The translations under genes were made by a program, and so were the position numbers. From Roseivirga ehrenbergii (GTDB lineage: Bacteria > Bacteroidota > Bacteroidia > Cytophagales > Cyclobacteriaceae), in the NCBI RefSeq assembly GCF_001593005.1, contig NZ_LQZQ01000051.1, forward strand, positions 62,001-126,000: 64,000 nt of DNA. Reading direction: 5' to 3'. The notes beneath the pieces are model-generated. The model was not told the DNA's origin, did no database searches, and saw nothing but the letters and a program-made list of their open reading frames with translations. Below are positions 26,196 to 28,606 of the stretch, piece after piece. The first letter of the stretch is position 1. Each line of letters opens with the position of its first letter.

Positions 26196-26352
26196 ATCAA
26201 AAATCCCAACAGTTTGGGGGTACAGTAAGTTCAACGGTTAGTGAAATGCTTTTGGTTATTAATTAGTAAAGAGAGAGTAATACTTTAGGGGTATGAAATA
26301 CGGAGATTAAGGGTCTACATTGTCCATTATTTTAAATCTAACCCAACCAATA

Positions 26353-27855
26353 ATGAGTACTACTATTAAAATCGAAAACCTAAGAGGTGCGTCTTCTTTG
26401 CTGGCGAATCAATCTTCTCCAGATCCAAGTAAAGCCCTTTATGTATTATTAACAGCCGATGCTTCATCTGGAGTTTCTGGAATAACCGTGGGGGCTGTGA
26501 CTCCTTTGACGGAGAACATGGCCATCACCTTTGATACAATCAAAAGTGGTCGTTTGTACGTTGGCTATGGTCAATACCCAAACCCACCGTTACCTCAGGG
26601 GCCTGATTATTATGGATGGATTGAGTTTTCACGAACTAGCACTGATACTGCGGTATGGATAAATCTATCTAACGTTGATATTCTTGGACTGCCTCTAACG
26701 CTTGAAGGAACTGATTCCGCAGGTGCCGCATTCTCTTTGGGCTACAAAACCCCAATGGTAGCAGCCAAAGCTTCTGACTCAATCGTTGGCCAAGTAAAAG
26801 CCGTGCTGGTCAATAGCTCTGCAGCGGTAATAAAGACCAATACTGGTCAGGATAAAATTCTTGCGCCTAATCATGTACCTGCTAGTTATAGGTCTTATGA
26901 TACTTATTTGAAAAGTTTAACCGATACCACAGCTGCCAATTACCCAGCTTCCTTGAGTATACTGTCGGATACTCCAAAAGATGGAAGTCCGGTTCAAATG
27001 ACGGGGAGTTTTAAAAATGCTTCAACGGGTTCCGATAACATTATTGAGCTTACAAGTACTGATGGTAAGCAAGTTTGTCACATCACCAAGGTAAATTTAA
27101 CCTCACAAATCATTTATGAATGTGATGGTGGTTATATGAATTGGTCCACTGATAGTGGAAATACTTTTAAAGCGATTCATCAGAATAGAACTGCTATAAA
27201 TGATCCGTCAAGCACGCTGGCGGAAAGGACAATTACCAATTCTGTATTTAGAGAAATTATGATTGGTATTAATGAGGGATATTTTTCAATGGCCAACCCT
27301 GCAAATAATAGTAATGCCATGTTTCCAGGTTTAGTGCCATTTGCTACTGGTGATGGCAACCAATATGCGCAGGTGATTCATGAGAACTCAAACTCTTATG
27401 GGTTTCCATATGCAGATTCAAATCTTAAGGTTTTAGTAACTTCTAAACTAGGAGCGGACCTTACCCTGAATGTAATTGCTGATGATGCTACAAAGGATTA
27501 TTCAGCGCCATCAGATAACAGCAGTAATCAGCCGCAATCTGGTACTTATCAATTTGGTATAGGAACAGGAAGCCAAGGTTTAGGTGTGATAAGAATTGGG
27601 AACTGGCGATATCTTCCTAATTCAGCCGGAGCCTATGGTGGATTCCTTCCCGACTTGCCAAATTGGACAAAAATGGAATTTAGCGGACTTGGTGCCAATA
27701 AATATATATGGGTTAAAAATAACCAAGTAGCGGAGGGGAGCGGATCAACCCAATGCCTTACCCAAGCTTGTGTTATAAATAATAAAGTCCTTGTTTGGGG
27801 GGCTGGTCTAGCTTGGAACGGTAGTGTGGCCGCTCCAGCGAAACCAACAAACTAA
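26353..27855 (+). CDS. GH64-like beta-1,3-glucanase (thaumatin-like fold), no signal peptide
   Basis: About 500 residues from the ATG at 26353 (an in-frame ATG at 26320 would add 11). Family resemblance: RLYVGYGQ and YYGWIEFSR near residues 65-90, VWINLSNVDILGLPLTL, and QYAQVIHENSNSYGFPYAD, matching the GH64 pattern in which a His/Asn-rich segment precedes an A/G-F-P-Y-D/A-D loop. GH64 enzymes release laminari-oligosaccharides from beta-1,3-glucan. I could not place the catalytic carboxylates with certainty. No export signal or T9SS tail is visible, unusual for a polysaccharidase. It lies beyond the DsbA gene from susCD and has its own terminators. It could instead be a non-catalytic thaumatin-like relative. 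Confidence 0.7.
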   Translation: MSTTIKIENLRGASSLLANQSSPDPSKALYVLLTADASSGVSGITVGAVTPLTENMAITFDTIKSGRLYVGYGQYPNPPLPQGPDYYGWIEFSRTSTDTAVWINLSNVDILGLPLTLEGTDSAGAAFSLGYKTPMVAAKASDSIVGQVKAVLVNSSAAVIKTNTGQDKILAPNHVPASYRSYDTYLKSLTDTTAANYPASLSILSDTPKDGSPVQMTGSFKNASTGSDNIIELTSTDGKQVCHITKVNLTSQIIYECDGGYMNWSTDSGNTFKAIHQNRTAINDPSSTLAERTITNSVFREIMIGINEGYFSMANPANNSNAMFPGLVPFATGDGNQYAQVIHENSNSYGFPYADSNLKVLVTSKLGADLTLNVIADDATKDYSAPSDNSSNQPQSGTYQFGIGTGSQGLGVIRIGNWRYLPNSAGAYGGFLPDLPNWTKMEFSGLGANKYIWVKNNQVAEGSGSTQCLTQACVINNKVLVWGAGLAWNGSVAAPAKPTN

Positions 27856-27904: not shown

Positions 27905-27913
27905 CAACTTTAC

Positions 27914-27947
27914 AAAGGTGCTTCAATATGAAGTGCCTTTGTTTTTT
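27914..27947 (+). terminator. Second terminator after GH64 gene
   Basis: An 11-bp stem (AAAGGTGCTTC / GAAGTGCCTTT, two G-T pairs) with a 5-nt loop and a following T-run. It overlaps the 3' end of the convergent VLRF1 gene. Confidence 0.7.
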
Positions 27948-28606
27948 AACTCATCAAACTGCTCAAAAAATGCATCGTCATATACCAGCTCGGCTTTGTT
28001 GAGGTATTTTTGCATGCCGAGCATAACCTCGAAATTGGGTTGATGCAAGTGTTTTGGGATTCTATAAAGGCGATCGTCTTTTTTATCGAAGGGAGTGCTT
28101 TCTTTCGACCCAAATAAGTAGGGTATTAGAATTTTAGAACAGCTCAAGGCAATTCTATCAAATTCGTATTCTTTGAAATGATCCTGAAGCCTGAGGTTAA
28201 TGTTTTCGAAAAACTCTAAAGTACTGGCCAAGCGTACTCGAGAACCAGCTCTTGATTTCCCTTTGGTTTTGAGATGTTTGATCTGGCTTTTTCCCTGCTT
28301 CTTTCTAACCATGTAGGCACCGAATACTTTGTGCGCTAAGCATTTTTCTCCTTTAAACACGCCTACAGACGCACTGCCCGATTGCACCAAAAGCATTAGG
28401 TAGTTTACTTCTTTTTCAAAATCTAAAACTAGATTTTGATTGCAGGTCAAAGTTAGGGGCAAACGTAGATAAGCTTCACGATCTTGTCCTTCCAAACCAA
28501 GTTCAACTCTGTGTTTATTGAAATCATATTGGGTTTCAAAGTTTAAGTCTCTGATTTTATCCAGAATCTCAGGCACTTCGGAACGATCAAAGAAAATGCT
28601 TTTCAT
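27923..28606 (-). CDS. Bacterial Vms1-like release factor (VLRF1 domain)
   Basis: 227 residues. The whole central region resembles the VLRF1 domain of eukaryotic Vms1/ANKZF1: LVQSGSASVGVFKGEKCLAH, then KVFGAYMVRKKQGKSQIKHL, then AGSRVRLASTLEFFENINLR, and a C-terminal DDRLYRIPKHLHQPNFEVML. The loop KQGKSQ holds Gln108 at the position of the catalytic Gln of the Vms1 GSQ motif. Vms1 cleaves peptidyl-tRNA on stalled 60S subunits during ribosome quality control, and the domain belongs to the eRF1 domain-2 superfamily. There is no zinc finger, ankyrin or VIM part, so this is a stand-alone domain with a short N-terminal extension. It is divergent from PBP1A; no ribosome-rescue gene is adjacent. Function on bacterial ribosomes is inferred. 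Confidence 0.82.
   Translation of the reverse strand: MKSIFFDRSEVPEILDKIRDLNFETQYDFNKHRVELGLEGQDREAYLRLPLTLTCNQNLVLDFEKEVNYLMLLVQSGSASVGVFKGEKCLAHKVFGAYMVRKKQGKSQIKHLKTKGKSRAGSRVRLASTLEFFENINLRLQDHFKEYEFDRIALSCSKILIPYLFGSKESTPFDKKDDRLYRIPKHLHQPNFEVMLGMQKYLNKAELVYDDAFFEQFDELKNKGTSY

Follow-up and report, generated by a model that had tools for sequence, protein, structure and literature searches.

When a ribosome jams in a eukaryotic cell, Vms1 is the protein that cuts the unfinished chain away. In bacterial ribosome quality control (RQC), the release step has long been without a known factor, and the candidate proposed so far is a general enzyme, Pth. Our interest was drawn to an open reading frame in a 64,000-nucleotide stretch of the Roseivirga ehrenbergii genome (the window), which had been read from its letters as a stand-alone, zinc-finger-free bacterial relative of Vms1 with the catalytic glutamine conserved and with a possible role in bacterial RQC. 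The locus raises two questions: whether its product truly belongs with Vms1, and whether it acts only as a partner of the RQC factor RqcH.

Family assignment and gene neighbourhood

The open reading frame is a real bVLRF1-encoding gene. Its coordinates, as given in the sequence-only reading, proved exact (Table 1), and comparison with two Roseivirga species gave dN/dS values of 0.094 and 0.073, indicating purifying selection. The protein matches the Pfam family PF18826 (bVLRF1, 'Bacteroidetes VLRF1 release factor') far above chance, with an E value of 3.2e-30 and a domain score of 105.4 bits against a curated cut-off of 27 bits, over profile positions 2-142 of 145. No Pfam domain besides PF18826 was found in the 227 residues, and the gene shows no link or fusion to RQC genes. 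The protein also carries the GxuQ motif as G105-K-S-Q108, with a small residue (Ser) ahead of the glutamine and with both Gly and Gln invariant in the loci read. No NCBIfam model scored above its cut-off. The model of acVLRF1 (NF041024), the actinobacterial and Chloroflexi family of the same clade, gave a marginal 14.1 bits (E 0.028), far under its cut-off of 125 bits; acVLRF1 likewise has a Gln-bearing loop, with the motif reported as GGxSQ (PMC6514570). A defence-system library returned no match to the protein. A search of genome contigs confirmed 199 relatives, the best 80 of which were retained for locus comparison; among these 80, the nearest named relative is that of Roseivirga seohaensis (97% identity).

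Table 1. Coordinates of the bVLRF1 gene, its parts and associated features (window positions unless a contig handle is given)
Feature	Position	Strand	Details
bVLRF1 CDS	27923-28606	minus	227 aa; ATG start at 28606; stop codon 27923-27925
VLRF1 domain (eRF1 domain-2-like, RNase H-fold)	27986..28399	minus	residues 70-207; PF18826 match
Catalytic-loop motif R101-KKQGKS-Q108 (GxuQ)	28283..28306	minus	R101, G105, Q108 opposite yeast Vms1 R288, G292, Q295
Extended loop RKKQGKSQIKHLKTKGKSRAGSRVRLA	28226..28306	minus	residues 101-127; near-invariant across bVLRF1; low-confidence (flexible) in AlphaFold model
N-terminal extension	28421..28603	minus	residues 2-62; inside model stretch 2-211 aligned to Vms1 13-397
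Terminator-like hairpin of convergent glucanase gene	27912..27942	+	consensus scan only
Beta-1,3-glucanase-like gene (GH64, PF16483)	26320-27855	+	E 9.5e-12; convergent with bVLRF1
RqcH-type gene	L118:503-2065 (own genome)		521 aa; NFACT-N + NFACT-R domains

These results identify the protein as a stand-alone bVLRF1, a member of the bacterial sister family of the Vms1/ANKZF1 catalytic core. In their 2019 description of the family, Burroughs & Aravind noted its stand-alone architecture, its GxuQ motif and its closeness to eukaryotic Vms1 (PMC6514570). The homology claimed from the sequence was right, and the family, the motif and the proposed role are already published, which limits the surprise. 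The Roseivirga protein is like the described family in sequence, domain extent, GxuQ motif, stand-alone architecture and occurrence in Bacteroidota, with no qualitative difference. Full-text literature searched by family name yielded that description and a domain survey unrelated to it, and no biochemical or genetic work on any bVLRF1 protein. New here are a residue-level test on divergent members (including Asn or Phe before the catalytic Gln), a narrow distribution that is patchy at order level, the absence of a conserved neighbourhood, and evidence for an RqcH-independent role through retention of the gene without RqcH.

The absence of an adjacent rescue gene, remarked on in the sequence-only reading, is correct for the window. 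The neighbouring genes encode a GH64-type glucanase, a DsbA-like thioredoxin, a saccharopine dehydrogenase, a cytidine deaminase, ribosomal protein S6 and a divergently transcribed PBP1A-type transglycosylase/transpeptidase. Across 81 loci no neighbour of bVLRF1 is conserved, and the genes named here are not retained from one genus to another. Within 8 kb, the largest shared cluster of genes occurs in 28 of the 81, and the immediate neighbours vary by genus. Operon structure and synteny were dropped as clues to function on these grounds. The adjoining PBP1A gene is an arrangement of Roseivirga only, and a glucanase homologue adjoins bVLRF1 in few other loci. In a consensus scan, a hairpin of 14 pairs followed by a T run (plus strand) was seen to overlap the last codons and stop codon of the bVLRF1 gene. 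The isolation of the gene agrees with the statement that prokaryotic VLRF-1 proteins are found apart from other RQC components (PMC6514570).

Resemblance to Vms1 and the catalytic loop

The alignment with the Vms1 core, originally made by eye, was reproduced by profile comparison. Searched as a single sequence with phmmer, the protein gave Vms1 as its first but weak match (E 0.06), while a profile built from 49 homologues and compared with the PDB gave yeast Vms1 as its sole match (E 5.8e-5). This profile aligned R101-K-K-Q-G-K-S-Q108 with R288-R-K-Q-G-G-S-Q295 of Vms1, placing Q108 opposite yeast Q295. The AlphaFold (AF2) model (pLDDT 86.8, pTM 0.81, with the catalytic loop at low confidence) predicts an eRF1-domain-2/Vms1-like fold, as the sequence-only reading required. 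Its top Foldseek match was the Vms1-60S complex 6r84 (E 3.6e-5), and VIA-align against Vms1 6r87 gave a Z score of 11.6 and an rmsd of 5.0 over 172 residues. This match spans model residues 2-211 and thus includes the N-terminal extension, which is described as common to bVLRF-1 and the eukaryotic VLRF1/Vms1 family (PMC6514570). The structural alignments to eRF1 and Vms1 both cover residues 64-203, the VLRF1 domain region, and the matches to eRF1 (Z about 10), Pelota and Balon are confined to about these residues.

Yeast Vms1 and human ANKZF1 (eVLRF1) have in common with the Roseivirga protein the VLRF1 core fold, the N-terminal extension and the catalytic residues equivalent to R288, G292 and Q295. 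The loop signature K-Q-G-x-S-Q...KGK...AGS (AGSxxR) of Vms1 is likewise common to the bVLRF1 loop. Vms1 also carries a zinc finger, ankyrin repeats, a coiled coil and a VIM motif, whereas the Roseivirga protein, roughly as large as the common core, has no sequence left for these parts; it is the core only, and its description as zinc-finger-free is borne out. Bacteria are not expected to have a Cdc48/Ltn1 pathway. Domain 2 of eRF1/aRF1 is alike in its RNase H-like fold with a Gln-bearing loop, but the Roseivirga protein lacks a stop-codon-recognition or eRF3-binding domain, has GxxQ in place of GGQ and has a longer loop.

The residues conserved in the bVLRF1 loop are those on which Vms1 depends. 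Yeast Vms1 mutants at R288, G292 and Q295 are nonfunctional in vivo, and alanine is tolerated at H279, H283, R284 and T286 (PMC5989216). R101, G105 and Q108 show no variation among the 80 named loci (the best 80 of 199 relatives) or among 49 further loci, 35-58% identical, that include the lowest-scoring members found, some species being represented in both sets. The conservation of Gln108 on which the sequence-only reading relied is thereby upheld. Spacing between G105 and Q108 is constant across the loci read, and in divergent members Gln104 may be replaced by Arg or missing and Ser107 may be replaced by Ala, Asn or Phe. Since Gln104 varies and Gln108 does not, only the latter of the motif's two glutamines is essential to the family pattern. 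At two of these loci (L128 and L138, in genomes G441 and G684), the catalytic Gln is preceded by Asn or Phe in place of a small residue, against the published GxuQ rule.

Balon is a bacterial hibernation factor with a non-catalytic role, and the fold is common to the non-catalytic factors Dom34/Pelota and Balon, so the fold alone does not demonstrate activity. If bVLRF1 were likewise a non-catalytic ribosome binder, for instance one that occupies the A site or takes part in hibernation, the bacterial origin of Balon, its aeRF1-superfamily fold and its rank as second Foldseek match (8rd8, E 4.5e-5) would be in keeping. However, Balon belongs to a different family and aligns with a lower score over a shorter overlap (Z 9.4 over 104 residues) than Vms1, which also covers the N-terminal extension. 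This lower rank is compatible with a role in common. In addition, families presumed inactive have lost the Gln and differ in loop length (PMC6514570), whereas the three loop residues and the spacing between G105 and Q108 are fixed in bVLRF1. We consider a purely binding role improbable.

Occurrence of bVLRF1 with and without RqcH

The R. ehrenbergii genome also encodes an RqcH-type protein (Table 1), tmRNA, ArfB (139 aa) and two full-length proteins with an RF-1 domain whose size is that of RF1/RF2. To tmRNA, ArfB and the RqcH type, bVLRF1 would add an accessory fourth route. Its occurrence is narrow: 6 of 395 sampled Bacteroidota species, all from the family Cyclobacteriaceae to which R. ehrenbergii belongs, 57 of 231 genomes of the order Cytophagales (eight families), and about half of the genomes of the family (93/196). 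Owing to this rarity, bVLRF1 can only be accessory. NFACT/RqcH-type genes were found in 289/395 of the phylum sample, 174/231 of the order and 183/196 of the family. The phylum rate, which counts NFACT_N, is far above the 404 of 1956 FCB genomes reported to carry rqcH in a survey with its own profile (PMC11633108), and genomes of other orders listed under the same class (f4-f10) are mostly without NFACT_N.

Conceivably, bVLRF1 serves RqcH-dependent RQC as its dedicated terminator, which would stop alanine tailing and release the tailed chain in the way that Vms1 acts with Rqc2. Such a role would follow the eukaryotic precedent, where Vms1 competes with and ends Rqc2 tailing (PMC12868832), and would suit both the RqcH homologue of the own genome, with its two NFACT domains, and the frequency of RqcH in the order that carries bVLRF1. 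Against it, RqcH-type genes are far more widespread in the phylum sample than bVLRF1, and the two genes share no neighbourhood and show no association in the family, where RqcH is present in 87 of 93 genomes with bVLRF1 and 96 of 103 without it (Fisher P = 1). Moreover, in B. subtilis Pth can release tailed chains, according to Svetlov et al. as cited in PMC11317155. At order level, RqcH was counted by hand in 52 of 57 bVLRF1 genomes and 122 of 174 others, a co-occurrence that is confounded by reduced genomes of about 1-1.6 Mb and was left unused. A third RF-1-domain protein, probably ArfB, occurs in 71 of 93 bVLRF1 genomes and 50 of 103 without bVLRF1 (P = 7e-5, uncorrected for phylogeny); as the statistic ignores phylogeny, no weight was given to this association.

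The genus Roseivirga also supplies evidence against an obligate partnership. Among its 19 genomes, 16 carry bVLRF1 and 10 carry RqcH, and in eight bVLRF1-bearing genomes, all of them drafts and one about 80% complete, no RqcH was detected by a six-frame search with a congeneric 521-residue query. The same query recovers orthologues of 46-48% identity at E values below 1e-146. On the bVLRF1 tree, which has low support at several forks, the eight genomes fall in one half of the genus, and their distribution implies a minimum of two to three state changes. In two sister pairs without RqcH (G594/G588 and G584/G557), the loop is intact and synonymous sites are saturated, with nonsynonymous divergence at only 0.10-0.12 per site. 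Barring very recent and separate losses of RqcH in each of these lineages, selection has acted on bVLRF1 in the absence of RqcH. The eight genomes and the family-wide Fisher test together indicate that bVLRF1 does not occur only together with RqcH. We regard a dedicated RqcH-terminating role as unlikely, and the role in bacterial RQC proposed from the sequence finds no support in the form of an obligate RqcH partnership.

Counting all 19 Roseivirga genomes, an RqcH-type gene is undetectable in nine, which cluster in one part of the bVLRF1 tree and form a natural RqcH-loss group. In another assembly, G430 (about 1300 contigs), two bVLRF1 matches lie at contig ends (G430:C757:10-360 and G430:C777:10-360; L123 and L124), perhaps an assembly split of near copies and not a true duplication.

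A predicted route for clearing obstructed 50S subunits

From the sequence comparisons and the structural model, we consider it probable (roughly 0.6) that bVLRF1 acts as a single-component, RqcH-independent factor that cleaves peptidyl-tRNA on obstructed 50S subunits, and not as an obligate last step of the RqcH pathway. At 227 residues the protein has no space for a domain that reads stop codons or binds a GTPase, nor for the Vms1 zinc finger, which makes an mRNA-free 50S subunit its natural presumptive target. bVLRF1 would bind the 50S subunit carrying peptidyl-tRNA once the 30S subunit has departed and would reach into the vacant A site with its long basic loop. Gln108, together with Arg101 and Gly105, would then cleave the peptidyl-tRNA within the peptidyl-transferase centre or beside it, the target being the ester bond or a position immediately upstream of CCA, and so free both chain and subunit. 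No RqcH tailing would be needed, and the route would be partly redundant with several others, those of tmRNA, ArfB and, in genomes that have it, RqcH. We infer the binding to ribosomes, the preference for 50S, the catalysis and the choice of bond. Pth and ArfB have proposed or known roles in nascent-chain release in bacteria, as is proposed for bVLRF1, and their folds are unrelated to it.

A Vms1-core protein that has all the catalytic residues, occurs in culturable hosts and works independently of RqcH would offer a minimal system for Vms1 chemistry and for the origin of the eukaryotic pathway. Transfer of bVLRF-1 from Bacteroidetes has been proposed as a source of eukaryotic Vms1 (PMC6514570). 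More tentatively, and at somewhat less than even odds, bVLRF1 may be a dedicated, RqcH-independent clearer of peptidyl-tRNA from split 50S subunits, using Vms1-type cleavage (possibly with removal of CCA). It would then be the first such bacterial factor and a relic of the step that gave rise to eukaryotic Vms1.

The term peptidyl-tRNA hydrolase, used in the sequence-only reading, covers just one of the two candidate chemistries. Vms1/ANKZF1 is called an endonuclease that removes the CCA end of tRNA (PMC11317155, PMC12868832), and the likeness of bVLRF1 to Vms1 extends along the whole loop, from K-Q-G-x-S-Q through KGK to AGSxxR, and is not limited to a GGQ. bVLRF1 might by this token remove the 3' CCA with the attached chain and not hydrolyse the peptidyl ester. 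Peptidyl hydrolysis has, on the other side, been argued, with GxuQ held comparable to GGQ (PMC6514570). We judge the endonuclease alternative to be evenly balanced; it concerns the chemistry only and is compatible with a single-component factor that clears the 50S subunit.
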